Shown here: positions 22,828 to 52,613 of the stretch, one piece after another
Position numbering within the stretch: the stretch's first letter is position 1
How the letters are laid out: each line of letters begins with the position of its first letter
Origin: Plumapathes pennacea
Taxonomy: Eukaryota; Cnidaria; Anthozoa; Antipatharia; Myriopathidae
Length of the DNA stretch: 64,000 bases
Direction of reading: 5' to 3'
NCBI GenBank assembly: GCA_964036295.1
Contig: OZ038462.1
Location: 28,333,759 to 28,397,758, forward strand
Program-made: the position numbers and the translations under genes
Notes under the pieces: generated by a model
Databases searched by the model: none
What the model saw: only the letters and a program-made list of their open reading frames with translations
Told to the model about the DNA's origin: nothing

Positions 22828-25800
22828 TCAGTGTAACGTGACTTGCACGAGGCCTGCATTCAGTTCTATGAAGCTAAAGAACAACAAACAAACAAACAAA
22901 CCATGGTAAGTTAGAGCCAAGCAGCACATTCCTTAACTTGTTCCATCCGATTTTTGTGGATTGTACTCAAGATTAAGGCTCTGGTCGCACTCGTAACTTT
23001 AACGACATTAACATCAACATTTGCATCATTTGAAGTGCAAACAGCGCTTGTCACCAGAAATATGTGTCAGCAAGTTGCTACCAAACACTGAAGAAGCCGT
23101 CGTATTGCTCTCGATGCTGAGTTATTATCGACTAAACTTTCCAGTGCGACCGGGCCCTTAGTCATAAAATCAATGCAGAAATTTAACCTTTGCCTAGGAC
23201 TGTATTTCTTGTTACAATAATAGCATTGAGATGCCACTCGGAAAACATTTAAAAGGTATTCGAGCATTCGGTTAACTTTCGGAGTTCCAGGCTCCTGAAT
23301 TTGTGATAATTTCGAGTATCGAGTAAATAATTTTTTTAAAGCTATTCGGGAGTAAGTGAGCCCGCGGTGCTTATTCACCTGTAGTGATTCCTTCGGAGGT
23401 AATCCAGGACAGCGGGTTTTATACGCGCCTTGCCTCCACGACTGTGCATCCCTCGACCTGTCACCACGCTAATTACCTTAGGAGATGGCCTGGGTGAATG
23501 GCCGCTTGGTGCTAAGGGAAAAATAACAAAAACATCATCGTCTGATCGTAAAAATCCTGATCATCACCAACACCAACACCACCGTCTTCATCACCATCAT
23601 TATCATCGTCATCATAAGACATGTCATACATTAACAAGAGAATAGTAAACAGGTATCGAATCACAAGTGTCTGCCTGCATGCACGTACGTTCGAAAAGTA
23701 TCATGGGGGACACACACCTTCCGGTTTCCACGCAGTCAACATCTGCTCCAGCACAAGCAAGGCTTCTTGCACGTGAAGGCCGTGAAGGTCAATCTCGTCT
23801 ATGCTCCTGTTAGAGTTTCTGTAAACAACATCAAAACAATAAAGGAAACAGAAGAACAACGAACAAACAAGCGAACTTTACTGTCCGTGTGCGTGTGCGT
23901 GTATGTCCGTGTGCGTGTCCGTGCGCATGTATGTGCGTGTGCGTGTATGTAAACTCATTTCTGCTCTTATAATCTAAATCAAGGGCTGTTGAGATTAACG
24001 TATGATGAATCGACTCTCGTCCCCTGAGTTGGACACGTTGGCATGGCTTTTACATCCTCAGGACTCTGGCGCATTCCTGATCCATACTAGAGTTGGCGCT
24101 TTGTGGAGAAGGAAGCGAGGGTAGATTGATAGCTAACAAACATGGTAACACGTGACAAACTGCAGCTGAGCTTCACGTTGACAAGGTTGTGACCTACTTT
24201 TGCTGCAGAATCATGGCTGCTGCTCGCTCATTGGCTTCTTTGATTTTCTGAGTGTGCTCGTGGCCCTGAAAAGGAGAGACCAATCAACACGTGTTGTAGG
24301 AAAAACGGAAACAGTGAACCACTCAGAGCGGATCACAAGCAAACACTGACATGCCAAGGTTACTCATAAACAGTTTTCACTTGAATGGTCATAGTTTGTG
24401 CACCACGCATCAAAATATTAACTCTCTTACTACCAAGCTCAAAATGCAGATTCTCCCAACCTTTCAAGAAAGCGTACGAGTGATGTAGTGAGAACTGATA
24501 GTTCAATCAGCTTTCATCTGAGAAAGCTATCAAAAGCCATGTTCTCCCTACTGTATGATATATCTCTGTAGTGAGAGACTGAAGGAGAAAATTGAACTTG
24601 ATCACTCTTGGGAGTAAAAAGACTTGCAGAGTCAACATGAAAACGATTCATCACCTGTCGTGCGTAAAACTGCGCTAGCTCTCCTTGTTTCCTTGAGAAA
24701 GCCAACGCGGCCTTTTTGAAGCACTCGTCGCGCAGTTTGTAATGCACATCGGCCTCCGCTCGGAAGTCTCTGTAGTCCGGGTCCTTCAGGGCCTGGAACA
24801 AGTCTCCAGCGACGGGCAGAGACTGGGGCAAGGCTGTAAGGAAGAGGTCTGGGTCAGATAGACATGTCGGTCGAGAGGTTGTGGAATTCCAAAAAAAAAA
24901 CAACACAGTGGTAGGAGTTTTAAGTTTTAAGTGCTTACTTTTCCCTTCCTGTGAAAACAGCGAACCTTCATCCGTCTTGGCCACCTCCTTGGTCAGCTAA
25001 AAAATGAAACGAAGATACATGTTGTTTGTGGGAAAGAGAAGTCTATACGCACTACGTAAATCACGTTAGCGAAGAAAACACAACAGATTTTTTTTTATTT
25101 TTTTTTTTTTACTTCATCAAATGGTAAACTAGTTCGGCGGTTGGTGCACCGCGGGCTCAAACAACCCAGAATCCATCGAGAAGCTATGAAACATGAAATC
25201 AAAGCACATAACACTTGGTTGTAAGAACACTTTTAACTAATCAGAAGCGAAAGTAATTCACTTTTGGTTTTACTTAACAAAGCGAGGAAAACGCCATCGC
25301 CACTTGCTTTCTTACGTGATCACAATCAGGTTCGCTTTTGCTCTTGATTGGCCAAGAACGCTATCAAACATGTTTGGGCCAATCCAAAAGCGTAGAAAAA
25401 CCAAAACCAAAGCAATCACACAATGTTTTTTCAACAGGCATCCGAAAACGGCTCTATAAGGGGTATTAATCAGTCCCTTATACAAATCCTCTTATTTTAA
25501 CCATTTGCATTGGGTCTGGCTACCTGTGGTTCGACCTGCTCCGTGGTTTTCTCTTTCTTCTGTTCTCCCTCTGGCCTCGCAAATCCGGACGCAGCAATTA
25601 CGGGTGGTTGCTCAGCCGTCAACATGCCACATGACGCCTTCACCATCTCCACGGTCGGACCCAGTTCCCGCCTGCCACAGAAAAAATATTCAGTTTGTAA
25701 GCTACAGATTCTCAGGTGAGGCAGTGTGAGCTTTTGTTTGAGCTGTCACATCCTTAGGTTTCAAATGACAGTAATCAGCCGGTTAAACTAGTTTTAAGAC

Positions 25801-28800
25801 GGGTTTTGACGTCAGAGAGAACCGAAACATTGAGGGACAACTCTTTGGGTCTATCACCAAACCAACTTTAAACTGATTAAAAGTTACAGATACAGGTATC
25901 AAACGCATATCTACAACATATACAGTATCCGCCATGGTATTGGACTACAGTCAACTACCCCTTAACGGACACACCTCTAAGACGGACACCTGGTAGGAGT
26001 GGTCTCTGCCGTTTCTTTGGTCATTTCCTCTAACTAAACTCTTTTTACGACGGACACCTGGTAGGAGTGGTCTCTGCCGTTTCTTTGGTCATTTCCTCTA
26101 ACTAAACTCTTTCTAAGACGGACACCTGGTAGGAGTGGTCTCTGCCGTTTCTTCAGTCATTTCCTCTAACTAAACTCTTTTTATGACGGACACCTGGTAG
26201 GAGTGGTCTCTGCCGTTTCTTCGGTCATTTCCTCTAACTAAACTCTTTTTACGACGGACACCTGGTAGGAGTGGTCTCTGCCGTTTCTTCGGTCATTTCC
26301 TCTAACTAAACTCTTTTTAAGACGGACACCTGGTAGGAGTGGTCTCTGCCGTTTCTTCGGTCATTTCCTCTAACTAAACTCTTATTAAGACGGAAACCTG
26401 GTAGGAGTGGTCTCTGCCGTTTCTTCGGTCATTTCCTCTAACTAAACTCTTTTTAAGACGGACACCTGGTAGGAGTGGTCTCTGCCGTTTCTTCGGTCAT
26501 TTCCTCTAACTAAACTCTTTTTACGACGGACACCTGGTAGGAGTGGTCTCTGCCGTTTCTTTGGTCATTTCCTCTAACTAAACTCTTTTTACGACGGACA
26601 CCTGGTAGGAGTGGTCTCTGCCGTTTCTTCGGTCATTTCCTCTAACTAAACTCTTTTTAAGACGGACACCTGGTAGGAGTGGTCTCTGCCGTTTCTTCAG
26701 TCATTTCCTCTAACTAAACTCTTTTTAAGACGGACACCTGGTAGGAGTGGTCTCTGCCGTTTCTTCGGTCATTTCCTCTAACTAAACTCTTTTTAAGACG
26801 GACACCTGGTAGGAGTGGTCTCTGCCGTTTCTTCAGTCATTTCCTCTAACTAAACTCTTTTTACAACGGACACCTGGTAGGAGTGGTCTCTGCCGTTTCT
26901 TCGGTCATTTCCTCTAACTAAACTCTTTTTACGACGGACACCTGGTAGGAGCGGTCTCTGCCGTTTCTTCAGTCATTTCCTCTAACTAAACTCTTTTTAA
27001 GACGGACACCTGGTAGGAGTGGTCTCTGCCGTTTCTTCGGTCATTTCCTCTAACTAAACTCTTTTTAAGACGGACACCTGGTAGGAGTGGTCTCTGCCGT
27101 TTCTTCAGTCATTTCCTCTAACTAAACTCTTTTTAAGACGGACACCTGGTAGGAGTGGTCTCTGCCGTTTCTTCGGTCATTTCCTCTAACTAAACTCTTT
27201 TTAAGACGGACACCTGGTAGAAGTGGTCTCTGCCGTTTCTTCGGTCATTTCCCCTAACGGACACCTCCCTAAAACGGACAGTTGGAGCTAGTCCCGAGGG
27301 TGTCCGTTTTAGAGGGAGTTGAATGTAAAATACGTTTACGAAAGTTGGTCCAACTTTAAAAACACGTCTGTAAATATTTCATTTACCCGTTCGACTCAAA
27401 CAGATCATCCAGCGCAGCAGGGTCGATCCCTGGGAACATGGAGTGCAGTTTCTGCTGCTTCAGAACAGTGGCGATGTCTTTGGTAGCCGTATCCACCTGA
27501 ACATCACATTTGGCCTTCAAACATAAGCAAACAGGACAAACTCTAAATTCCTGAATTTTTCTTCTGTTAGAAACGGAAAATTTCAGCGAAACACGCTGAA
27601 ATCGCTACAGCAGCAAGAAAACCACCACCACAACAAGGTTAGCAAGTCTAAGCTCTATTCTCGCATAATTTTTCGAGTTATCGATCGACTAAAATCTCCC
27701 ATAAATTTTCTTATGAAACTCAACCGTGACATCACACAGTCAATCAGCTTGGGCCGCCTGTGGTAGCACAGCGGAGAAAAGCGCTAGTCCCACACAGTTT
27801 CAGCTATACATCTCTACAAACATCAAACTTCTTTCTGCTCAAATTTCTCTCACCTGTTTGCTCAATTCTATCGCAAGCTGCTCATCCATGATATCTCTGA
27901 ACGGATCTAGGAAGGAACATGACATGTATTTATAATTTATAATGCGAGTAGCAAAATGAGGAAGAATCGTGTCATCAGCTTTCCTCTCAGCAAGCTATCA
28001 AATTGATATATACGTGACAAGAAGACTAAAAAGAGAAGTTAAAGGTAATCACTGCCAGGGGTCAAAGGTGAAGGTCAAGTGTATGGATGGGTGGATATCA
28101 GGTCGTGTTGACTCCAAACTGTTTTCGTCTTGATAATTATTGAGTGCATGATATACAACAGTGTGGCATCGTACCCATTTTCAGTTGTTTGGTACCCTTC
28201 TCGCGGCCGTCCTGCCAGTTCGGAGAAACGTCTTTGTCTCTCACCAGTCTCCTGAGTTTTCTGGCTTTTTTCTGACCGGGCGAATTCTTAAGCATAGAGG
28301 CATCAGTCCTAGCTTGACCTTCAAAATAAAGAAGTTTCATATTTTAAACTGTCCCTTTTTCGACAGACTTGTGACCACAGGATGGTCTAGAGAAAACAAG
28401 CCACAGAGCGATAGATTAGCACAGAATTCAAGACACCATTTCTATGGAATGTTAGAATGCCTACTGCTGCTAAGGTAGAGTGTACGATTACCATATACAA
28501 ACTGGGAAATAGTAAAAGTGGATCCTGACCAAGTGGAAAAAGAACCTTTCTACTGTGCCTGAACATTTCGTTATATTACCAAGCTCACCTCCTGTTGCAG
28601 TAGCAGTTGCAGGTTGTCTTGCCTGTCAAATAGAGAGACAAAATATTATATAACAGAAGAGCTCCAAAAATCCCCTAACTAATTAGAACCATTCTTACAA
28701 TATAGAACATCTAGACTCAACGACTTGTTAAATTTAATGACAGTAAAAGTGACCCTTTTGGGATATCCGTGAGGGCCATTCTACGTCCGCGGCTCACATA

Positions 28801-31800
28801 TATGTCGTTACTATATCACATATATCATCACATCGTTTTAGATTTAGTGCTTTTGTTAGTTAGTGTGTCACTTACTTAGTTGTTACGTTCTTGTAACACA
28901 TAAATGTCATTGGGTGAAGAGAATCAAAGAATAGACAGAAACAGTCCACACCTTCACGCTCTTTTTCCACTCCTTGTACAGGGATTCTGCAAATGCCGAG
29001 TCCACTTTGACCACGAGATCTTCAGGCGAAAGCTCATCTGATACAAAAGGAGTTAACAGCGAATGTGGATCACAATTTACTTTTGACATTAATAACGTTC
29101 ACTAGTTCATTTAAGAAACCAAAAACAGAGATTTCGACCTCAGCACAGCGCTTGTACAGTCCTTGCTCAACAGCAAAAAGGAACTGTGGTGTTATATCAA
29201 ACCTAAATAACGTTTATATATATTTTTCCTGGATTAGCCTAATCAAACTTTGAACAACCGGACCCAGGAAAAAAACAAACCTCTCAGATCTGTTCCTGTC
29301 AGAGGGCCAAACATCTCGATCAAATGAAAAGCAACGGCCGGCTCCAGGGACAGTTGAAAACAGGACGTGTCATACACAGGTTCCTCTTCTCCCTTGGTAA
29401 GATCAACGAGAGATTGACCGGAAACTCGACTGGAAGTAATGGTTGAAGTCTCCTTTGTTGTCATAGTTTGGACTCTGCTCGGATCCAAAGGTCTGGCACT
29501 AGGCATCCTCGGAACTTTGGGATTTGTTAGCCCTTCTCTCACTGGCTGCGATGTAGGTGCATTACTCGCGCCTGCCTCAGGGCTCCCTCCTAAATTGGCC
29601 CTTGATGGGTGCGCAGATGGATAACATAACCGGTCAGCGGTCATGTTCCCACTTGCACCTGCGTACGTGAAGGAGTCTGGGAAATCAGGGACACCACTGC
29701 ATCCTGGGACCGACACGTTTGCTGGGTGAAGCATGGAACCGAGGCTCTCAGTATTGTGTTCACTGTTCCTTGGAAGAGATGCTTCATTTCCTGGAAGTCT
29801 CTCAGAATCCTTGGCTGGGGAACTTTTTTGGGTGTCTTCGTCACTGCTTGCAAGAATAATCTCAACCGTCTTCACAACATCCCCGTCGTTTGATGACAAC
29901 AAAGACTCCACGATACTGTAGTCAAGGTCCGGGAAACATGTTTTCAAGAATTCAATTCCATCCACGTCGCTGTCTTTTTCTTCAGGAACACCTGTCGCTG
30001 CTGCTTCATTCACAGCATCCGAGGCCGCTGCGAGGTTGCCAGCCTGCACAGTCAAGATCTCTTGTAAAACATGTGTTCCTGCAGGTCCGCTACCGCCGCG
30101 ATTCTCACTTGCCAAGTGGCGCAAATCTGACGCTGTGGGCATCTCTTTTGCTCCCAGCTCAGCGGGATTTCTCTTCGATGCAGTGTGTTCTGGTCGTGAT
30201 ACCGAGTGGGAGTCAGGAAGATCAACGATTTGAGGCCGACGATAACTGTTGGACTGACGACTCAATCGATCGTGTTGTTCGTCATCACTGGTTTCATCGC
30301 TTTCCACAATGACATCATCATCGCCATCATTGACCAACAGCGGGGAATGATCTCTCGAGCTCGTTTCCATGTTAGCACCATGGCCGGTAATTTTCGTCTT
30401 TTCTATATCGGGGCTCGCAGTTGCCTTCCTGTTCCTGGGTGAGCGTTCCCTCGTGCCTCCCTCATTCTCTGGTACCTCCCGCAATCCAGGTAGACCTTCA
30501 TTTGGTTTCATGTTGCCATTGTCAGGCTTTGGGGAACGTTCCCGAGTTTGATCTGGACGGTTTTCAGCTCCTTTGGTTGAGTCTGCTCTCACTTCTCGGC
30601 TGGAGTTCATTACTTTTTCAACCGTCATACTCCGTTCATAACGTTCCAGCATCCTCCCAATGGTTGCAATCCCAACTTTGTGCTGGTTGCGCCTAGAGTG
30701 AAAACAAGTGAAAGGGAAAACATTGATACGTTCTTTCTCTGTCTTTAGTATTTGTGGGTCACCTAGTCGGCTGGGATGAAGTGGAAATCGTTAAACTGGG
30801 AGTTGATTTAATCAGGAGAGTATCAGCTTTTGCTAGTGTAAGGAAGAAGGATTTCAAAACAATCTGGAATAAAAGTCCGGGTATTCCTATTCACCTAAAC
30901 CCCTCGGACGTACAAGTAAATTTATACCCCTACCACAAACAAGAGAGTTCTTCTCGGAAAATGCTTCTTTTGGCCACTTAATCAATTATTGCTTTGCAAA
31001 TTTTATCTCCCTAAGTTAATAATTGCACCGACCACAAAGCCGCCACCTTGGAATAAAAAAAAAAAAAAAAAAAAAAGGCGAAATGTTTTGTTAACTGTAC
31101 CTGGCAAGCTCTTTCAAATTGAATTTCCACCACGTATCTGGTTCCCTGAAGATTACAGTGTAACCAAACTGCAACCCCTGTTCACCAAGAAGAAGAAAAA
31201 TCTTTCAACTAACAATAAAAACGACCTCAACCTTCTTTTCCCTCCACTGATCATAAAGCGGGCACAGAAGCCAGCGTGGAGCAGAGGACGCGCCCCACTC
31301 CTCGCGCGTCTGCCACCTTCGTGATATAATTTCCCGGCATGCGCCACTTCTGCACCCCAGTCCCCGTGTTCCACCACTTCTGAGCTCCACTCCCCGCGTA
31401 TCCTCTATTTCCGCGCCCCAATCCCCACGCGCCCGCCCTTTCCACATTCTGCTTCACTCGTAATGAAGGGAAAACGGAACCTCGTTCCCAGGCTCTTTCA
31501 TCTCCCGGCCCCCGGAGTACTAGCGCACCATCCTCATTCCAAGCTTGCCATTCTGTTTCTGATGGACTAATCGTGCTGAAAACTGGACTACACTTTCTAA
31601 TGATTCTAGTGTTCATTTCCAACTCAAATATCAAAAATGAAACCTGAAGGTGTAATCACTCGAATCAAAGCTCTGAAAACGGTGAAAACAAGTTCCCGGT
31701 GATACTGCAAGAAATCTCTTTGCAATACCCGGTGTAGTAATACACCAAAAACAAACGGCTCCTTTAGAAACCACCAGTTCTAAATAAAGTTATGATCAAA

Positions 31801-39507: not shown

Positions 39508-42500
39508 ATGTTCGCCGCCAGAATATTTCTCCTTGGAATTTGCGTCTTCTCTGTTAGAGGTGAGAATATTTTAGCCATGTTTTGCTCTGCTAAGTGACCA
39601 CCAGCAGTCATTAAATATTCGCCAAAAGCGACCAACCGCTCCGAGTGTACAAACTCGAGCAATATTTTTCAAAATATGCTTTTATCGATCGTTTTGTATA
39701 TCATTACGTCCAGGAAAGTAAAATTAGACTTCCTTGTAGCTTATGTGCTGTAGGATACTGTTTCGTAGTCCATCACGCGATAAAAGTGTCATTTGTTTGA
39801 TTACAGCTTTCCGAAAACCGACTGACGAAGCAAGAAGATTTGTTTTATTTGTGGAATCTTCAAACGCGTCTTCGTTTCGTGCAGAAGATTTGCGCACTTT
39901 AACTGTAGAACTGAGAAGTCGTGGTGTAAATGTGAAGCTTGTCTTGGTCAACAAACATGGCAATATAATAAAAACGAACCCCTTCGCATACGCCGCAGAA
40001 AGTCCGGCAGGCGGCAAGTAAGTGCACGTGAAATGTTGTGTACAATATATATATATGGTAACTTTTGTGATTCTCTTTGAAGTGATTGCTGCAACGCTTG
40101 AATGATATTCATGAACAGAAATACCGAAAGCAGTCAACCATGTTATAGCTGATTTCATTTCGAAACGACAAATGTTGTTTACATTGGGAACACTTCGTTG
40201 GAAACGCGCGCGTTCGAATTAAATACACGCATGATAGACTTCGCTTCTTGTTCACGATCGATTGTTGTAGTTAACAGTCGAATTGACCGATTGATTTTGC
40301 TATGTATTATGTAAAGAGTGGGGAAAGAACAGTATTTTACCGCCCAAACTTGCCAATGAAGTAAACGGTTAAAATGTATTTGTCTAGTTTGTAGCAGCTG
40401 TTTCCGTGAGGTCGATTATGGCACTCCCGCTTTACTGCTCACAATATTTATCTATGGAATGTGCCAATATCTTATTTCGCTATCAGTATTGTGGTTTGAA
40501 ACCAAAAGATGGTCTACCTTTTTTGGGAAGGCAAATTATTTATTCAGAAAGGCAAACATGCCGAATTTGGCGATTAATTTAGTTGAACGGAGCATCACTA
40601 AGTTGCTGATTTTACTGCCTCTAAAATGTTTTTGTTCGATATAAGATATGGCTGAGGGGCGTGTTGGAGTATATTTCCACCTCACACTGGGAAATGTAAA
40701 ACTTAGCAGTTTGAAGTTCCTTCCCACCGGATCGGGGCTGACATCTACACATGCAATGTAAATTTTACGAAGGTTCTAATTTTGCGACAAAATTTCATTG
40801 AAATTGTGCGAGCTTGAATCTTTGCTTGTTGTTTTAATAATCAAATGATTTTTTTAACACCACAAACGGTTCTGAGCTGCTATTTTCTCAATAGACAAAA
40901 GTCCTGCTGTGTCATTGCTGAGTTTTGAAATTTGTTTTTGTGACCGCGGTACAATGTTGTTGTGAGGTCCGCACTGAAGTATATATAAATATCTCACTAT
41001 TCATCATAGGTATAATTATTGCACCAGTGATGAATGTCTTCAATTCCCTAATTGTTCGACTTCCAATTGACAAAATCATTTCCCACATGCACAGCGGATA
41101 CAATATTATCTGTGAAAGATTACAAGAGCTTTTGTGACAATTAATGCCATTAATGTTTTTTACAGATATGATTTGCAGTTTTAAGTAGATTAGAAGAGCT
41201 ACTGAAACTAATTAATTTATACCTGATATTTTAGATATTTTGCATCCCAACTTTAAAGAAAATAAGATCCCCAAAAATTAGGGGTGGCAAATGGTGCCTA
41301 GAAAATCGTGATTCATGGAAACTTTTGATCCGACCTCAAAATCTAGGAAGCCTTTGTAATGAGTCACGGAGTCTCGTTTTTGTTTGGTTCTTTCCGGATT
41401 TTCTAAAGTCGTTAAAGACTTAGTCTTGGATCGGACAAGAGTCTCGGCGTCTCAGCAGGTTTTACCATTCTCCACCTAAAAATGTATTTTGTGAATCTAA
41501 ACAAAGTTCAGTCGAATTGAAATTACATACAACAAGTGTGTTGAATTTGATCTGAGGGACTTAGGCTGGATGATACATATTAGTAGGGGTGGATCCAGGA
41601 GAAAATCTGACCTGTTTTCAAATGTACAAATTCCATAGGTGCTAGCTTCTAGAGGGGAAAGCTTTTGAAACTGGGCCCTCCAAAATGCCATTTTCAGAGA
41701 CTGAGAATTTTAATTTTAAAATGTTAAACTCTGACCAGTGTAATCTGGTCTGGACCCACCCCTGATAGTTATAGCTGCATGATTGTGCACAGTGATTGCC
41801 AGTTTGTATAATCCTAACTATACAGTGTGTATCCCTGAGCTTATCACAATACAAATTCTCTCAACTATCCAGGAAGAATATTTGCAGTAACTGAAGGATA
41901 TAATTTAGGACTGAAGGAAAAAAATAACTTTCAGAGCTAAAAAGGATATAACTGACTACTGTGATAGCAGGACAAGTTTGCAATTTATTTGATAATAGCA
42001 TTTATAATCTAGCTCCTAACAAATTTAAGATTATGCAGGAAATGTGTAACTACAGTATATGTCTCACTGCAAAACTTTGTGAGGGTTCTAGTGGATGAGT
42101 ATGGTATTCTTGAGAAATTTTGGCGAAACAGCTGTTGCACCTGATTGAACTTATGCAATTCAGGACTCGATTTTAATGTTATCAGTGGTTCTTTCAACCA
42201 ATCACAAGTGGTTTTCACTGAGTGATAATTAAAGTGGCCTGATCAAATTTCCTAACAGCCTGCAGGTAAACACTTAATGGGTTCCCTGTTTCCATCAACT
42301 TAATTAACCACTTTCACAATCATGTACAGTAGCAAACAAGTGGCTCACCAGAACATCTGCACGTCATGAACTGCATATTATTGTGAAAATGGCTCATTAT
42401 CACATCATATAATTTATGTCTTTAAATTTATAACATAACTATATAATATGGCCTAATTCTGGCGTATATTTTGAATTATTTTCTTGACCTGGCACTTCTT

Positions 42501-43765
42501 TATTCTTTTTGAATGGGAAGCTGAAAAATTTACCTGCCAACCTTTTTTGAGTCAAAGGCATGAGATTTTTATCTTGGAAGTACCAGGATGTTCAAAGACG
42601 ACAGGGCCATCTCCGAAGACATCCAAAGATTTAAATTTCAAGTTTGCCAAACACAACCTCACCCCCAGTGCTTTTCCCTTCAAAAATTGGAGAATTTGGG
42701 GAAAGTACCATCATTTACATAACCTTTTCTTCTCTCGCATCTGTTTGAGTTTCCATATATTTCAAAGGTGTGATAATTAAGGCTGTAAGAGGACCTAGAT
42801 GGGGGAGGGGGCTGTGTAACACTTAACAGTAAAAAATTAAGGCCCATGACACTTAACAGAGGGCCTAGATGGGGTTTACTGTTAAGTGTTATGGGCCTGA
42901 ATTTTTTTCTGTTAAGTGTTATGAAGCCAAAAAAATTGTTAAGTGTTATGTAAAAAAATACAGTTACGTGTTACATAAAATACTTAAATAAAACAAGACA
43001 AGAGGGCCTAGTTGGGGTTTACTGTTAAATGTCACTGAATTTTTTACTGTTAAGTGTTATGCAGACACCCCTCCCCCCATCTGGGCCCTCTTGTCTTGTT
43101 TTATTTAAAATCTAGTCTTGTAACACTCTTTATTATATAGATATGAGTGTTTTACTGGAAAATATACCATGCGTAAAATCCATATGAAACTACATCCGGG
43201 ACTCGAGTGGCATATTTTCCATATCTTCACTAGTGAGGATATCTTTGGCGAAGCGCTCGTTCGTAAAAATAATATTGTTTTTACCACTCGAAAATAAAAT
43301 TCATATCTTCGTGCCGCCATGTAATATCCTCTATGTATTTTTTTACATAACAGTTAACTTTAATTCTTTTGGAAGGTATAGAATAATAATGCAAAGTTTT
43401 AAGATACTCCATGTGTAAGGCATCTAATACTGTTAACCCACATGTTGTTTGTATACTCTGATTCACAGATATTCACATGAGTATGGCAAGGGTGATCATA
43501 CCTTTGTGAAACAAGATGATGTTGTTCAATGGCTTTCTGAACAAAAGCCCACTGATGTTTTGTGTTTGGCACAGGATGCCGCAGTTCCCCACAAGATCCT
43601 CACAGCCAAAAGCAAAGGTGAGGCAAGAGCGTGGTCTTACTATTTTCCTTCAGGGGTTTAACTGAACTGAAAATATTATCGGTGAGCTTTAGAAAACCAA
43701 AATGCACTCATAAAATAATGGCCAGCTCTGGTAAAGTTTACACGTGTACTTTGTCAACAATGCAG

Positions 43766-43803
<38 letters not shown>

Positions 43804-46800
43804 ATTTCAAAAAAGGTTGACCCTCAAAAAATAGCAAATAGGCAAATACCACGACCGAAAGGGATATTGGGATTCGTGATTAATTTCAGCTTGTTTACTG
43901 AATAGCCAAGAATTTCAGGCAAATATATTATTCTCAAGCGAAGTTCACACTCTACTCACACGACATGACTTATTCAAACGTGAATATTATCAGATTCATA
44001 TCATTTCGTCTATTTCACAGAATCCCTTTCGGTCGTGGTATTTGCCTATTTCACTATTTTTGAGGGTCAACCTTTTTTGAAACGACTGTATATATATATA
44101 TACACTGTTTTATATGTCGACATCCAATTCAGTTGATTCCTTTTCCATCATGCACAATGCAACTTTAGTATAAGCGATAGTACGAGTCAGTGACTGGCCT
44201 TTTTCTCTTTGTGGCTTCGATCAACAAGAGGAAGCACGCAATCACTTTTGCAAACTTGCTGTATGTAAAATATATAAGTTTATCAGGGCATGTTATTGGT
44301 ATTTGTTATGGAGATGCGTAACTATTTTTGAATAAATAGAGGACAGTCTACATAGCTGTGCAGTAAGAAAGACTTTCAATCACTCGGAAGCCAAAGTAAT
44401 CCGCGTTTGGTTTTACTACTGACAAAGACACCAATAAGCAATGCAAGAACACTCGAGATGCAGTTCGATGCAAGTTTGACTTGAGTTAAACTTGCATTGA
44501 CTTGCAAAAGGGTGGCCATACTGGAGACGCAAGTCGCTGCAAGCTCATGCAAGTTTCGTAGAAGGGTTCTATTTTAAATGACGTTCTTTTGTGATCACAA
44601 AGTACAACAAATGATGGTCGGTAAGCAAACCTTTCCTTAAAAACAGAAAAACCCGCGTCGACTTGCATTGACTTGCGCTGACTTGCATGAAAATTTGAAC
44701 ATGTTCAACTTGGATGCGAGTGGTTGGCCAAACGAAGCGCAAGTTCGAAAACTTGCATTGACTTTCGTCGACTTGCATCTAATTTTGACCTGGGACTTAA
44801 CCTTGTTGCATGAGAATATCGTAATATTTTGCTCTTGATTGGTCAAGAATGCTGCTAAATTTGTTTGGACAAATCGGAAAGTGTAGCAAACGCAAAACTA
44901 GAGTACTCACGATTACTTTCGATAGTCATCCGAAAAGATGGTCGAACCACAGGCAGCCCACAAGGTGTTACTAAGTCACGCCTGATCGGTCAAGGTCTGA
45001 TGACGTCACGGCCGATTTGTATGGGGAGATTTTCAAATCACATTTTATGCGTGAAAATAAAACAATCTTTCTCCTAAAGTTCGTCAGATAACATTACGAG
45101 TCCTTATTTACCGTTTAAGGTGACTTTCGAGGCGATTTTTATTTTTGTGCTGAATTTCAGTACATACACAGGCAGCACAAAAATAAAAATCGCTAAATCG
45201 GCGCCAAATCGCCTCGAAAGTCACCTTAAACGGTAAATAAGGACTCGTAATGTTATCTGACGAATTTTAGGAGAAAGATTGTTTTATTTTCACGCATAAA
45301 ATGTGATTTGAAAATCTCCCCATACAAATCCTTATTAACCGATCGGCCGTGACGTCATCAGACCTTGACCGATCAGGCGTGACTTAGTAACACCTTGTGG
45401 GCTGCCTGTGGTCGAATGTAATAAGTTCCCTAGCTGCAAAGTAAAAACCTCCAACTGGTCTTGTGGAAAATTCAAAACCCAAAATAGCGAAAGACAGAAC
45501 AGCTAGAGATGGCAACAGCTCAAGTACCTCTTGAGTCTTGAAGGACGGTTTTTTGGCGATGACTACTCTGTGAGGATGTACAGTACACGGATTACCAACT
45601 ACATCATTCTCGTTCTCAGCCTCCTTTTCCTACTTCACCAGGGGAAGAAGCCTGGGAAGGAGGATAAATTGAGACGTCTCGTATGCGCATGTATGCGTAT
45701 ATTACCAATATGGCGGCAGTGTTTACAACAATGTCCTGCGGATTAAGACATAATTTATGTATACCTGCTGACCGCTCTTGTATGAAAACGTTACAGTATC
45801 CAAGCAAACTGTCGGGCATTTTTGCAATATATCACATGCCTTTGTTTCGCAGTTGAACTTTGATCGTGTTCTTTTTTGTCTTTCTTCAGGGCTTCTTCCT
45901 TCAGAAATCAGGGTTTTCGTTTGGATGGATAAGCAGAGCTGGGAAAGCAATAGACCTACAACAGCAGAAGTGGAAATAATTGCAGAGATTGTGCAGTTAT
46001 CTGTAAGTACTATACAGCAACCCTATTAACGTTACTGTATGAAACAACGTATCAAAGTAATTTGGTCCAGTTCAGACGCTCGGCGCATGTGAGGAGCGGC
46101 ATCTGAACCCGGGCCTAACTCACTTATAACAGTTCCTTAGACCTACACGTAACAGGTTACTACCTATATTTCTCCACCCTTATCTTTACCACACATACCG
46201 TAAAAATTCGAATAAGCGCCCGGGGCGCTTATTTAATTTTCGGGGGTCGGGGGCGCTTATTCGGGAGGGGGCGCTATTTAATTTTTGAAAAACCATTGCA
46301 ATCTGAGTCCATAGAAAACACAACTTTAATAACAATCTAACAAGAACTGGAACAATAACAAGGATTTACCAGAGCACACTGGTGTCGTTTCAGTCAACAA
46401 TAGAAGCCCGTAATAAAGTTACTGTCGATTGATATTCACGTGGTTCTTTTCATTGAGTACCGGTTAATCATTTATACAGCAAGAGAAGAGGTGGGGGCGC
46501 TTATTCGGGATTTAAAAACATCAAGTTCATTTTTCTTCATTTTCGGCAGCACAAATATATGATACAGTGAGGAGAACTTGGCTTTTGATACCTTGCTCAG
46601 ATGAAAGCTGATTAAACTATCAATTCTCACTATATCACTCATACAATTTCCTCGTAAAAGGTTGGGAGAATCTGTATTTTGAACTTGGGAGTGAAAGGGT
46701 TAAAACGCGAACTGTCATTGAATATTATCACCGTTTGATCGGGATTTTACACTATGCCAGCTACGTACTATGCATGACCAAACACAAATGCACAAACATG

Positions 46801-49800
46801 ACAGTTTTGTCATGAAATCATGTGTCAACAAACATATCATGCGAGGTAAACCGGATTTTGACTCGTTATAATAGTTTCGTAACGTAACACACTCCAGCCA
46901 AACAAACCTGTTTCTCGTGCTATTCGCACGGTGGTGAAAAGGATTCACAGTAAGATTTCCTGTCGATTTTTCATTAGCGATAGAATCCGCTCGAGACAAT
47001 TTTATAAACAAACAACTTTGATATACCACAGTCAATCTACATCTGCAATTATGTCATGAAATCATGTGTCAACAAACATATCAGCGAACGCAAAAAACTC
47101 GGAATAAGCTTTACCTTTGCCAAAACATATGTCACACCATACAGCCGTGTTGCTTCTTTCGTGAGCGGAGCGTATATTCGCAAATGTGTCCAGTATTGTC
47201 GCTCTAAATGCGAATCTGTGTCGCCTGTTTGCCAGATACTACGGATATGTCAGCCAGGGGCTGAGAGGGATCAGATTTCCACATACAACCAAAGAATCGG
47301 CAACACTCATAGCCGCCATTAAATAGTGCCTTGATTCTCCACGTGCGAGAGAGTAATATTTAGAAGACCCCTCCCTGGAGAGGTAATTTAGCTTCTGACA
47401 TTCTGTCGCCAAGTTATAACATTAGCACGGAAACCCTTTACTGGAAATCTCTCTGTGCATTCTTTGTGTTAAGTAGATAATAAAAGACAACTTTCTCACA
47501 GGTCCTACACCACGGCGGCTTTTATATGGATAGCACTTCATGCCCCTCCCCCCTCAGAAGTTTTTGCCACCTAGAGGGGGGAACACTTTATTGACCTAAT
47601 GAGATGGGCCGAACGGTAGTTTGTCCGAGACGATGACACAGTAGCTGTTTGCATATATGCAAATAGCTTCAAAAACCCAGTGGAGGGGGGAAATCTGGCT
47701 AAGGTTTTTGAGGGCTTAGTGTTACTTTTCCAAGCACATTTGCAAGCCACTTGTGATCTTTAAAGACCCATTAGCACTTACCATGATGCACCGTGCATTG
47801 TTTATTATGACACGTCACCCCGATCGGAAAAAGAACACTACAAGGACACTGCCAGATACATAATCAAGCCCTTGCAATTAAATAAAGGTCAGAGCATGCT
47901 ACAGATGCTCGGATGTCAATGGATTTTCCGCCACTAGCTGTAGAATACGAGAAAAATGATTTTCGTTGCCCCAGAAAATACGAAGCGAACGCGGTGCATC
48001 ATGGTAAGTGCTGATGGGTCTTTAAGGTAGTGGAGCCTTCCTGAATTACAGAAATTGGGGCCGACTTTTTTTCGGATTTTTCCAAAAAGAGCCGCGTATC
48101 TAGCTACCAGACTAATGTTTTGCTGCATTTGCTCCGACAGGTATATACTGGCTTTGCAAAACAGAAGGACATGTTACAAACAGAAACGAGGCTCAAACAA
48201 TGGGGCCCAAATCCAGAAGACTGGACCAGCAAAGTCGGATTTGTATCAGCAGACAATAAAGACAGTCTCATTTTGAAAATACTAGAAACAAGCAAGAATG
48301 TTCAAAGTTATCAACAGATAAAACAACGAGTCAGACGAGTAGTATCTAATGCCGACAACGTCTCTTCAGTCAGTGCTCCGGCAGTCAGTGCGCCGGTGAG
48401 TTCGTCAGCATCAAGTTCTGCAGTGGTTCCACCAGTCAGTCCATCAGCATCAAGTCCTCCTGTAGCTCCACCAGTGAGTTTGTCAACATCAACTTCTGTT
48501 GTTCTTCCACCAGTTGCAAAATGTTCTACCGTTGCACAAACAAGTAACATCATACCTTCAACAACAGGTATTCTTTCACCGTTTTCATCGGTTGCACCAG
48601 TGACTCCAACAACTCCGGCAGATATAGCTTATGTTGTCGTTTTCAACGGTACCTTTGACGGTCTTCAGAAAGAGGAAACGAGGGAGAATTTTACAAGAAG
48701 CTTCAAGGAGGAGATCGTACGCATTCTAGAGATCGATGCTGCCCAAGTTACTATTAACAATGTTAGCTGTGGTTCCGTCAATGTCACATTCACAGTAAAG
48801 GATGCCACGAATGACAATGTTACAAAAAGACTGGATACCTTGGTCAGAGAGGGGAAACTTAAAATTACCTTCAATGACAAACTGTATGTAGCTGAGAAGG
48901 TGGTTGTTGTTCCAGTCCCAACAACACCAACACCAAGTACTACACCGACCACTACATCAGCATCAGCATCAGCATCGAGTTCGTCAGCATCAAGTCCTGC
49001 AGTGGTTCCACCAGTCAGTTCATCAGCATCAAGTTCTGCTGTGGTTCCACCAGTCAGTTCATCAGCATCAAGTTCTGCTGTGGTTCCACCAGTCAGTTCA
49101 TCAGCATCAAGTTCTGCTGTGGTTCCACCAGTCAGTTCATCAGCATCAAGTCCTGCTGTAGCTTCACCAGTGAGTTTGTCAACATCAACTTCTGCTGTTC
49201 TTCCACCAGTCGCAAAATCTTCTACCGTTACACAAACAAGTAATATCATACCTTCAACAACAGGTATTCTTTCACCGTTTTCATCGGTTGCACCAGTGAC
49301 TCCAACAACTCCGGCAGATATAGCTTATGTTGTCGTTTTCAACGGTACCTTTGACGGTCTTCAGAAAGAGGAAACGAGGGAGAATTTTACAAGAAGCTTC
49401 AAGGAGGAGATCGTACGCATTCTAGAGATCGATGCTGCCCAAGTTACTATTAACAATGTTAGCTGTAGTTCCGTCAATGTCACATTCACAGTAAAGGATG
49501 CCACGAATGACAATGTTACAAAAAGACTGGATACCTTGGTCAGAGAGGGGAAACTTAAAATTACCTTCAATGACAAACTGTATGTAGCTGAGAAGGTGGT
49601 TGTTGTTCCAGTCCCAACAACACCAACACCAAGTACTACACCGACCACTAGATCAGCATCAGCATCAGCATCGAGTTCGTCAGCATCAAGTCCTGCAGTG
49701 GTTCCACCAGTCAGTTCATCAGCATCAAGTTCTGCTGTGGTTCCACCAGTCAGTTCATCAGCATCAAGTTCTGCTGTGGTTCCACCAGTCAGTTCATCAG

Positions 49801-52613
49801 CATCAAGTTCTGCTGTGGTTCCACCAGTCAGTTCATCAGCATCAAGTTCTGCTGTGGTTCCACCAGTCAGTTCATCAGCATCAAGTTCTGCTGTGGTTCC
49901 ACCAGTCAGTTCATCAGCATCAAGTTCTGCTGTGGTTCCACCAGTCAGTTCATCAGCATCAAGTTCTGCTGTGGTTCCACCAGTCAGTCCATCAGCATCA
50001 AGTCCTGCTGTAGCTTCACCAGTGAGTTTGTCAACATCAACTTCTGCTGTTCTTCCACCAGTCGCAAAATCTTCTACCGTTGCACAAACAAGTAATATCA
50101 TACCTTCAACAACAGGTATTCTTTCACCGTTTTCATCGGTTGCACCAGTGACTCCAACAACTCCGGCAGATATAGCTTATGTTGTCGTTTTCAACGGTAC
50201 CTTTGACGGTCTTCAGAAAGAGGAAACGAGGGAGAATTTTACAAGAAGCTTCAAGGAGGAGATCGTACGCATTCTAGAGATCGATGCTGCCCAAGTTACT
50301 ATTAACAATGTTAGCTGTGGTTCCGTCAATGTCACATTCACAGTAAAGGATGCCACGAATGACAATGTTACAAAAAGACTGGATACCTTGGTCAGAGAGG
50401 GGAAACTTAAAATTACCTTCAATGACAAACTGTATGTAGCTGAGAAGGTGGTTGTTGTTCCAGTCCCAACAACACCAACACCAAGTACTACACCGACCAC
50501 TACATCAGCATCAGCATCAGCATCGAGTTCGTCAGCATCAAGTCCTGCAGTGGTTCCACCAGTCAGTTCATCAGCATCAAGTTCTGCTGTGGTTCCACCA
50601 GTCAGTTCATCAGCATCAAGTTCTGCTGTGGTTCCACCAGTCAGTTCATCAGCATCAAGTTCTGCTGTGGTTCCACCAGTCAGTTCATCAGCATCAAGTT
50701 CTGCTGTGGTTCCACCAGTCAGTTCATCAGCATCAAGTTCTGCTGTGGTTCCACCAGTCAGTTCATCAGCATCAAGTTCTGCTGTGGTTCCACCAGTCAG
50801 TTCATCAGCATCAAGTTCTGCTGTGGTTCCACCAGTCAGTCCATCAGCATCAAGTCCTGCTGTAGCTTCACCAGTGAGTTTGTCAACATCAACTTCTGCT
50901 GTTCTTCCACCAGTCGCAAAATCTTCTACCGTTGCACAAACAAGTAATATCATACCTTCAACAACAGGTATTCTTTCACCGTCTTCACCGGTTGCACCAG
51001 TGACTCCAACAACTCCGGCAGATATAGCTTATGTTGTCGTTTTCAACGGTACCTTTGACGGTCTTCAGAATGAGAAAACGAATTTTACAAGAAGCTTCAA
51101 GGAGGAGATTGTACACATTCTGGAGATCGATGCTGCCCAAGTTACTATTAACGATGTTAGCTGTGGTTCCGTCAATGTCACATTCACAGTAAAGGATGCC
51201 ACGAATGACAATGTTACAAAAAGACTGGATACCTTGGTCAGAAAGGGGAAACTTAAAATTACCTTCAATGACAAACTGTATGTAGCTGAGAAGGTGGTTG
51301 TTGTTCCAGTCCCAACAACACCAACACCAACACCAAGTACTACACCGACCACTACACCCGACGAAACGTATGTCGTCGTAATGGAAGGTGACTGCAATGC
51401 CATTGTGGAAGATGAAGAAAAGAAGAAAAAGTTCATGCTGGAGTTCAAAAAGAAAGTCGCTGAACTTTTAGAGATTAATGAAACAAAAATCATCGTTCAT
51501 AAGGTTGAGTGTGGCTCAGTGAACGTCACATTTACAGTTACTGATGCCAAAAAGACTAACGTCAAAGAAAAGTTGGAGAAATCTGTCGCAAACAGTGAAC
51601 TGGTAGTCAAAGTTGATGGGAAAGAATACAAAGCTACAAGAGTAGAGGTCGTACCAACCCCTCCAACACCAACACCAACACCAAGTACTACACCGACCAC
51701 TACACCCGACGAAACGTATGTCGTCGTAATGGAAGGTGACTGCAATGCCATTGTGGAAGATGAAGAAAAGAAGAAAAAGTTCATGCTGGAGTTCAAAAAG
51801 AAAGTCGCTGAACTTTTAAAGATTGATGAAACAAAAATTATCGTTCATAAGGTTAAGTGTGGCTCAGTGAACGTCACATTTACAGTTACTGATGCCAAAA
51901 AGACTAACGTCAAAGAAAAGTTGGAGAAATCTGTCGCAAACAATGAACTGGTAGTCAAAGTTGATGGGAAAGAATACAAAGCTACAAGAGTAGTAGAGGT
52001 CGTACCAACCCCTCCAACAGAGGAAGCGCAAACAACCCCTGAGCCAAAGAAAAGCAAACTTGCCTTCATACTGTACGTGACATTTGGCGCACTTATGGGA
52101 GTCATATTCATCGTGGGTGTTATCGTGCTGGTGTCACGCTGCAGGCGTGACCAAAAAGCAGGCGGGTTCACTTTGGCTGCAGATGCCGATTACGAATTGC
52201 GGCACTTTGAGAGGATCCCGCGAGCCAGCTACTACAAGGTTGACTTTTACGGGCACGCCGAGGAAATCGATGCTTCGAGGTTAGGCCCAACAACGGATGA
52301 TGACTTTGACACTGGCATTGTGCCCTACAATCAGAGCTTTGGAGCGGAATCGTCAGCCGGCAAAGAGGTGACAACTGTGAATGAGAATGCACGAGATGAC
52401 GAATTCACTATGGGAACGCTGCCGGAGTGGAACCTGCCCAAGCTGACCAAGTCTGAGGTCACAGTTGAAGACGGCCGTCCCTCGACCACTGATAGCTTCA
52501 AGGGAAGCCGAGAGAATCTGCTTGACGGTGATAGTCCCCCGTCGGGGGGTGGGAGTGGCTATGAAAACCTGGGGATGACCTTCAAGGAGCCCGTAAAGAA
52601 GGAGGATGAGTGA
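39508..52613 (+). CDS. Type I membrane mucin-like protein with six SEA-like modules (1,665 aa)
   Basis: Five exons: 39508-39559, 39807-40017, 43469-43617, 45890-46002, 48141-52613; phases 1, 2, 1, 0 all join. The start MFAARIFLLGICVFSV is a signal peptide. Residues ~19-260 form an unrecognised alpha/beta domain (RRFVLFVESSNASSF, VNVKLVLVNKHG, EIRVFVWMDK). Then Ser/Ala/Val/Pro tracts of a 13-residue repeat (VSSSASSSAVVPP) alternate with a ~97-residue module starting near residues 336, 568, 852 and 1136; two diverged modules follow (~1249, ~1365). Each has the pattern 'F...FKEEIV.ILEI....V.I..V.CGSVNVTFTV', close to the SEA-domain layout and its G-SVVV cleavage motif (as in MUC1), and several Asn-glycosylation sequons. 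A transmembrane helix at ~1482-1505 (LAFILYVTFGALMGVIFIVG) is followed by SRCRRD and a ~160-residue tail ending near SGYENLGM. I infer a cell-surface glycoprotein. The SEA assignment is by eye and not certain; no named orthologue recognised. Confidence 0.88.
41583..41762. mobile_element. hAT-type MITE (AGGGGTGGATCCAGGA ends)
   Basis: AGGGGTGGATCCAGGA pairs with TCTGGACCCACCCCT; related to 10943-11252. In intron 2 of the mucin-like gene. Confidence 0.6.
42788..43092. mobile_element. Fold-back MITE with AGATGGGGGAGGGG arms
   Basis: Left GACCTAGATGGGGGAGGGG and right CCCCTCCCCCCATCTGGGCC, with several 'CTGTTAAGTGTTATG' units inside in both orientations. In intron 2 of the mucin-like gene. Confidence 0.65.
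43128..43341. mobile_element. Compound fold-back MITE, copy B (internally deleted)
   Basis: Same ends as 34639-34985 (TTATTATATAGATATGAGTG ... GTAATATCCTCTATGTAT) but the middle is missing. Confidence 0.7.
43799..44088. mobile_element. Tc1/mariner-type MITE in a TA repeat
   Basis: Ends (T)AGTCATTTCAAAAAAGG and CCTTTTTTGAAACGACTG are inverted over ~70 bp, including 'CAAATACCACGACCGAAAGG'. Both ends abut TATATA, so the TA duplication cannot be separated from the (TA)n tract. In intron 3 of the mucin-like gene. Confidence 0.8.
44345..44940. repeat. 'TCATCCGAAAA' family copy interrupted by another repeat
   Basis: The family's outer parts ('TCACTCGGAAGCCAAAGTAA' and 'GATAGTCATCCGAAAAGATG') are split by ~44430-44800, which repeats 'GACTTGCATTGACTTGC' many times in both orientations. 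Intron 3 of the mucin-like gene. Confidence 0.55.
44947..45410. mobile_element. Long palindromic element (arms ~220 bp)
   Basis: Left CCACAGGCAGCCCACAAGGT and right ACCTTGTGGGCTGCCTGTG pair almost without break for about 220 bp per arm; only ~25-30 bp of loop near 45155-45180. GTCGAA lies directly outside both ends (44941-44946, 45411-45416). Arms differ by a handful of bases. Intron 3 of the mucin-like gene. Confidence 0.85.
46197..46520. mobile_element. MITE with 'AATAAGCGCC' ends
   Basis: Left TACCGTAAAAATTCGAATAA then GCGCCC; right GGCGCTTATTCGGGATTTAA. Intron 4 of the mucin-like gene. Confidence 0.6.
46525..46702. mobile_element. TTAA MITE copy, left end missing
   Basis: Interior 'TGATACCTTGCTCAGATGAA' and right end CTTGGGAGTGAAAGGG plus TTAA match the 8012-8222 family. 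Intron 4 of the mucin-like gene. Confidence 0.75.
47764..48021. mobile_element. TTAA MITE with AGACCCATTAGCACTTACC ends
   Basis: TTAA (47760-47763), AGACCCATTAGCACTTACC ... GGTAAGTGCTGATGGGTCT, TTAA (48022-48025). Inserted 119 bp before the 4.47-kb last exon of the mucin-like gene. Confidence 0.85.
48378..51020 (+). repeat. Exonic VNTR arrays (39-bp unit) inside near-identical ~0.7-0.85-kb blocks
   Basis: A 39-bp unit (TCATCAGCATCAAGTTCTGC...) coding for 13 residues is arrayed at ~48378-48510, 48958-49175, 49654-50027 and 50506-50879. The arrays alternate with SEA-like modules starting at 48621, 49317, 50169 and 51021. Block spacing is 696, 852 and 852 bp; the 156-bp difference is exactly four 39-bp units. 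Between blocks 2 and 3 the DNA is almost base-identical, including synonymous positions. This is coding sequence of the mucin-like gene, not a separate element. Confidence 0.92.

Follow-up and report, generated by a model that had tools for sequence, protein, structure and literature searches.

A probable transmembrane mucin with six serial SEA-like modules encoded in the genome of Plumapathes pennacea

MUC16 is a transmembrane mucin that carries SEA domains in series. In its revised model it has 19 tandem repeats, each made of a SEA domain and a Pro/Ser/Thr-rich linker, repeats 1-17 being highly similar and repeats 18-19 more variable (PMC10829539), and five exons encode each repeat (PMC3431878). 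Among cnidarians, the sea anemone Actinia tenebrosa has a described MUC1-like protein with a single SEA domain, which shares with MUC1 a signal peptide, a Pro/Thr/Ser-rich part, a membrane-proximal SEA domain and one helix (PMC9080433). In a coral, a subset of ectodermal cells expresses a unigene with a signal peptide and a SEA domain (PMC2629781). Here we describe a gene on the + strand at positions 39508-52613 of a 64,000-nucleotide stretch of the Plumapathes pennacea genome (hereafter the window; assembly GCA_964036295.1, contig OZ038462.1 or C1, positions 28,333,759 to 28,397,758; 290 megabases in 24 contigs). In class and layout its product is probably a transmembrane mucin with SEA-like modules, a reading based on its open frame, its repeats, a hydrophobic segment, the predicted fold, a match to a SEA profile built from this genome, and another gene that has the module, helix and tail.

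In a five-exon model, 4,998 joined bases give 1,665 codons with one terminal stop, intron phases of 1, 2, 1 and 0 and GT/AG at all four introns (Table 1). Exon 5 alone accounts for 4,473 bases including the stop, inside a frame that runs for 1,522 codons from stop to stop. Hydropathy of the spliced protein exceeds 1.6 in two segments only, the N-terminus and residues 1488-1506; residues 1-17 are read as a signal peptide, which rests on the inferred splicing. The first-pass annotation had proposed just such a mucin-like membrane protein from a five-exon gene, and the gene model and hydropathy bear it out in its parts: a signal peptide (by way of the same splicing), an N-terminal region, a Ser/Thr/Pro-rich part with modules, one helix and a tail, the last put at 160 residues and found to be 159.

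The modules fall into two sets. M2, M3 and M4 are 99%, 100% and 95% identical to M1, and M5 and M6 are 96% identical to each other and 39-40% identical to M1-M4. The single base by which M2 departs from M1 and M3 turns CGSVNV into CSSVNV, so that the proposed presence of CGSVNV in every module fails at M2 while the arrangement of four similar and two diverged modules holds; M4 DNA differs from M1 and M3 by seven bases and six deleted bases. Arrays of 39 base pair (bp) units precede M2, M3 and M4 in 6, 10 and 10 copies, and the array preceding M1 is short and diverged. Taken with their linkers, units 2 and 3 agree at 693 of 696 aligned bases and units 3 and 4 at 836 of 846, the unit 2 array being shorter by 156 bases, or four 39-bp repeats. 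Near-identity of this order implies that the M1-M4 array expanded recently or was homogenised by exchange. Given such similar units (M1 and M3 being the same), their number may vary between individuals, and the assembly might contain one unit too many or too few. Serine, threonine and proline make up 55-64% of the four long linkers, which are rich in Ser, Ala, Val and Pro, as against 14-16% of the modules. Arrays separate the modules as proposed as far as M4; the M4/M5 and M5/M6 linkers are just 13 and 12 residues of Thr/Pro/Ser. M1-M4 have one cysteine each, and M5 and M6 have two.

AlphaFold predicts for both M1 and M5 a ferredoxin-like beta-alpha-beta-beta-alpha-beta fold of about 100 residues. 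Its top structural neighbours are SorCS2 and the SEA-type juxtamembrane domains of IA-2, EpCAM, Trop2 and MUC16, and it is thus not a fold unrelated to SEA; it also occurs outside SEA, for instance in Cas6 and RRM. MUC1 and Notch are not among the 50 neighbours listed, and the absence of MUC1 is not counted against SEA. A closer comparison came from the same genome, in which seven other loci, and not the window gene, exceed the cut-off of the Pfam SEA model (PF01390); since the modules do not reach it, they are called SEA-like rather than members of Pfam SEA. Six of the seven loci (the fragment L028 left out) were made into a profile, which is a sound SEA set because its PDB matches, 11 sequences at E <= 1, include known SEA proteins: adhesion G-protein-coupled receptor F1 (1.3e-9), TMPRSS11D, MUC1 (4e-4), agrin and MUC16. 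Against this profile a five-row module profile (M2 and M3 omitted as near copies of M1) scored 29.4 (E 0.0001, probability 57.7%) over 47 columns with GS aligned on GS; 200 column shuffles reached at most 18.8 and the reversed module profile 9.6. A profile of TRADD-N, from six of eight same-genome loci (near copies L033 and L035 left out), gave the modules 13.2 (E 0.12), the shuffle range having been made for the SEA comparison only. With the SEA score above the shuffles and the TRADD-N score at 13.2, the modules are best called divergent SEA or SEA-like domains, and the earlier suggestion of SEA-like modules gains support from fold and profile together. Divergent domains that Pfam misses can evidently be found through comparison within a genome. 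Elsewhere the module profile met weak, unrelated-looking PDB sequences only (E >= 0.32), no MUC16 chain being matched by sequence, and no relatives were confirmed in the prokaryote genomes or viral contigs searched. On exon 5, NCBIfam returned seven families, all far below cut-off and taken as chance sums over repeats; the best, a Shiga toxin B-subunit model, had E 9.6e-6 and 25.7 bits against a cut-off of 204.5.

A second gene carries the module. Searched against the genome, M5 found one place besides the six modules, C5:11945062 (E 8.7e-9), in a gene at G000:C5:11939929-11945805 (L020, L021) whose Ser/Thr-rich 1,343-codon frame ends in a module, a helix and a tail. Like the window gene it has a Ser/Thr-rich large exon, but it has one module, with two cysteines and CGSVHV, and another N-terminus, and the intron preceding its large exon is in phase 1 as read by eye, against phase 0 here. 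Its tail has KVDYYG for KVDFYG. The modules of the two genes align with a score of 137 (shuffles 27.8 +/- 5.2) and the tails with 52 (27.3 +/- 4.5), none of 500 shuffles scoring as high in either case, whereas the N-terminal exons are unrelated (28 against 28.9 in shuffles, 289 of 500 as high). Since module and tail are related and the N-terminus is not, the conserved core consists of module, helix and tail. The upstream exon of the C5 gene contains cysteine, has its own signal-peptide-like start and has no Pfam match; the idea that it is a distant copy of the N-terminal region of the window gene was rejected, as neither BLASTP nor shuffling supports it. A search with the C5 module gave, apart from itself and the six modules of the window gene, a single match, at C2:668290 (E 0.2); this candidate third gene was taken as chance and rejected, its frame by eye resembling an ionotropic glutamate receptor. 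At the sensitivity used, two genes of the genome carry the module. The YENL near the end of the tail of the window gene resembles phosphotyrosine motifs that Grb2-type SH2 domains recognise.

The GS of the modules sits in the beta2-beta3 loop, where the SEA domains of MUC1 and Notch-2 are cut (PMC6954182), and is followed by V-N-V. Self-cleavage accompanies GSxxV with x being V or I (PMC9478142), and an alternative motif places three hydrophobic residues after GS (PMC7349879). The asparagine of GSVNV, present in five modules (M2 has SSVNV), violates both definitions, and none of the six has GS[VI][VI]V. The strict motif is a weaker test than it appears because SEA domains of this genome that Pfam accepts fail it too: the six aligned ones have GSVVC, GSIIC, GSVKV, GSVGF, GSVVA and GSFIA.

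Perhaps the modules are never cut, to which we give nearly an even chance: they would be purely structural and adhesive spacers that retain GS because folding or a binding partner needs it. The missing strict motif, the lost glycine of M2 and the GSVHV of the C5 gene fit such a role, as do TRADD-N, which keeps GS at the same turn and in which Ser67 of TRADD binds a partner (PMC8195603), and the MUC16 counterpart DSVLV, at which a test showed no cut (PMC4456727). Retention of GS in five of six modules (M1-M3 being near copies) and in the C5 module speaks against pure spacers, as does the proteolysis without ligand of the MUC1 and IA-2 SEA and SEA-like domains in a chimera assay (PMC6586460). 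EpCAM, IA-2 and Notch are described as having no self-cleavage motif or activity (PMC7349879, PMC6586460). A protease may instead do the cutting, with the membrane-proximal M5-M6 pair as the likeliest place; in our judgement this is a serious possibility, at somewhat less than even chances.

Self-cleavage of several modules at G|S, leaving a chain of noncovalently held pieces separable by pulling, appears unlikely. Five modules have GS at the right loop, and the variation after GS among the six SEA domains of the genome makes the missing strict motif nothing special; on the other side stand the middle asparagine, where autoproteolytic SEA domains have V or I, and the SSVNV of M2. In a ferredoxin topology, strand 1 terminates at the end of the sheet that also holds the 2-3 turn, and for that reason the cysteine pair of M5 and M6, and likewise that of the C5 module, could form a disulfide; the cysteine before GS may then be bonded in M5 and M6, a further point against self-cleavage. 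The multi-nicked glycoprotein of the first-pass annotation accordingly finds little backing in the sequence, with the strict motif in none of six modules, GS lost in one and no cut seen at the DSVLV of MUC16 when tested, and GS at a beta2-beta3 turn is not by itself readable as a cleavage site.

Several observations weigh against the reading as a transmembrane mucin with SEA-like modules, one on the modules and the rest on exons 1-4. PF01390 has no match up to E 10 in exon 5, M1 or M5. Exon 1, of 17 codons, has a negative codon score (-0.349), and exon 2 scores 0.030, short of the 0.052 that marks the 95th percentile among 236 open noncoding segments of 50 codons, controls whose lengths are unmatched to the exons and which were scored after training on three frames. 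On the minus strand, too, no stop interrupts the exon 2 stretch (39724-40218, 164 codons), and the splicing that joins exons 1-4 to exon 5, being inferred from sequence, is the weakest part of the model. It would also be conceivable, if quite improbable, that exons 1-4 are unused or belong to another transcript, so that the N-terminal domain is not in the mucin. Besides the undistinctive scores of exons 1 and 2 and the open minus strand, this would accord with the fact that the N-terminal region has no relative elsewhere in the genome at E <= 1, which leaves exons 1-4 without comparative support. Against it, phases and GT/AG sites fit at every junction, exons 3 and 4 both exceed the 0.072 that marks the 99th percentile for the noncoding segments, and the only signal-peptide-like segment before the transmembrane helix is at the N-terminus of the spliced protein. 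In each of exons 2-4, moreover, the stop-free one of the three + frames is the frame needed for splicing.

The N-terminal region itself (residues 18-246, about 229 residues) has 18% Ser, Thr and Pro and one cysteine. It has no match in Pfam or among PDB sequences, a single NCBIfam match far below cut-off and, in its own genome, itself alone at E <= 1, in keeping with the earlier remark that no family could be named for it. A strand/helix alternation like that of von Willebrand A or GT-B was an idea formed by eye and is not claimed. The domain is a target for structure prediction.

Least probable is that the modules are extracellular offshoots of TRADD-N, an intracellular immune adaptor domain expanded in cnidarians, given its score against the 29.4 for SEA and the absence of the window from the eight TRADD-like_N matches of the genome at E <= 0.001, although the whole of exon 5 reaches 59.6 bits as a sum over six copies where single modules fail. 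SEA and TRADD-N (PF01390 and PF20694) have in common their fold and the GS of the beta2-beta3 turn. By summing copies, a repeat protein that is closer to SEA can reach the TRADD-like_N cut-off. FAZ1_cons behaves similarly, with 52.3 bits over exon 5 (cut-off 27.5), 18.9 and 17.9 for single modules, below the cut-off, and 12.9 for the C5 module.

Taken together, the protein is probably a single-pass type I transmembrane mucin. Its Ser/Thr/Ala/Val/Pro arrays, judged by composition, would be O-glycosylated and hold the N-terminal domain, a putative binding head, off the cell. M1-M4 may be globular N-glycosylated spacers that multiplied recently along with their linkers, and the membrane-proximal M5-M6 would be the old part and a possible site of ectodomain release, as in other SEA and SEA-like proteins; the cytoplasmic tail could link to signalling or sorting. 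More speculatively, and with only a slim chance of being right as a whole, the protein would be a surface receptor whose N-terminal alpha/beta head recognises a microbe, another colony, a mineral or a glycan, on a stalk whose SEA-like modules yield serially under force or oxidation, the lone cysteines next to GS in M1-M4 cross-linking neighbouring molecules and the pairs of M5-M6 closing on themselves. The stalk would in that case act as a tunable network that can be shed, instead of a single fuse. No evidence for a biomineral role, which had been suggested, was found in this analysis.

Table 1. Features of the gene in window coordinates (pLDDT, predicted local distance difference test score)
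Feature	Position	Strand	Remarks
Exon 1	39508..39559	+	start codon and signal peptide MFAARIFLLGICVFSVR; gene model; hydropathy 1.88 over residues 1-19
Exon 2	39807..40017	+	first part of N-terminal domain; sole open + frame; no other genome match at E <= 1
Exon 3	43469..43617	+	N-terminal domain; gene model; codon score 0.087
Exon 4	45890..46002	+	N-terminal domain; gene model; codon score 0.207
Exon 5	48141..52613	+	end of N-terminal domain, linkers, six modules, transmembrane helix, tail, stop
Last part of N-terminal domain	48141..48353	+	residues 176-246; boundary by eye
Module M1	48621..48920	+	CGSVNV, one Cys; predicted fold pLDDT 87.8
39-bp linker array, 6 copies	48978..49211	+	SSSASSSAVVPPV type
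Module M2	49317..49616	+	CSSVNV (Gly to Ser); one base off M1
39-bp linker array, 10 copies	49674..50063	+	
Module M3	50169..50468	+	DNA identical to M1
39-bp linker array, 10 copies	50526..50915	+	
Module M4	51021..51314	+	CGSVNV
Module M5	51354..51665	+	CGSVNV, two Cys; predicted fold pLDDT 86.8
Module M6	51702..52016	+	membrane-proximal; CGSVNV, two Cys
Transmembrane helix	52059..52133	+	residues 1482-1506; boundaries by eye around peak 1488-1506, hydropathy 2.83
Cytoplasmic tail, 159 residues	52134..52610	+	KVDFYG (52236-52253), YENL (52560-52571)

Other features of the window lie within the introns or outside the gene. An interspersed repeat in intron 2 (41278-41480) occurs at 72-82% identity in at least 39 other places (40 of 173 candidates scored), and an inverted repeat in intron 3 (45080-45400), with two long reverse-complement arms by eye, is perhaps a transposable element remnant. 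On the minus strand, frames at 24517-30790 match CUE (PF02845) and DUF1771 (PF08590) above cut-off, in what we take to be a gene resembling N4BP2; between frames of this likely gene lies a 68-bp tandem array (25978-27258, 18.8 copies, 97% matches). Elsewhere in the genome, four of the SEA loci (L022-L025) continue by eye into a hydrophobic helix. At another (L027, G000:C7:3495946), the Pfam SEA domain is followed in the same frame by several alpha/beta stretches that look module-like by eye; this is perhaps another serial SEA-like protein, and serial SEA may not be foreign to the genome.

Among known systems, the juxtamembrane SEA-like domains of IA-2/phogrin, EpCAM/Trop2 and Notch resemble the modules in fold and membrane-proximal position; to our knowledge each of these proteins has a single SEA-like copy and no mucin arrays. 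Nor do we know of a counterpart in MUC16 to the N-terminal globular domain of the window protein. TRADD-N is like the modules in its RRM-like fold and its GS at the beta2-beta3 turn (PMC8195603), and unlike them in being an intracellular immune adaptor domain, whose same-genome copies have no profile match to the modules. MUC1 and the MUC1-like protein of Actinia tenebrosa, the latter likened by description only, resemble the window protein in their signal peptide, Pro/Thr/Ser-rich part and single helix and in having SEA (here SEA-like modules) next to the membrane (PMC9080433); they have one SEA domain against six modules here. No cnidarian protein with serial SEA modules was found in the literature searched, most subscription journals lying outside its scope and the papers being available in part.

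The label 'undescribed' given by the first-pass annotation nevertheless does not stand, as the kind is already known from MUC16 with its serial SEA domains on Pro/Ser/Thr linkers (PMC10829539, PMC4456727, PMC3431878) and, with one SEA domain, from the sea anemone MUC1-like protein (PMC9080433). The window protein is a local, unusual version of the MUC16-like kind and not a new one. It shares with MUC16 the transmembrane mucin plan and the split between similar repeats (1-17 there, M1-M4 here) and more variable ones (18-19, M5-M6). It differs in that a single exon holds its six modules and their 39-bp linker repeats, against five exons per repeat, and in its cysteines, of which MUC16 has two per repeat and the window protein one in M1-M4 and two in M5-M6. 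Here, then, is the MUC16 plan in an animal where, to judge from modules, exon structure and linkers, the series seems to have multiplied independently.
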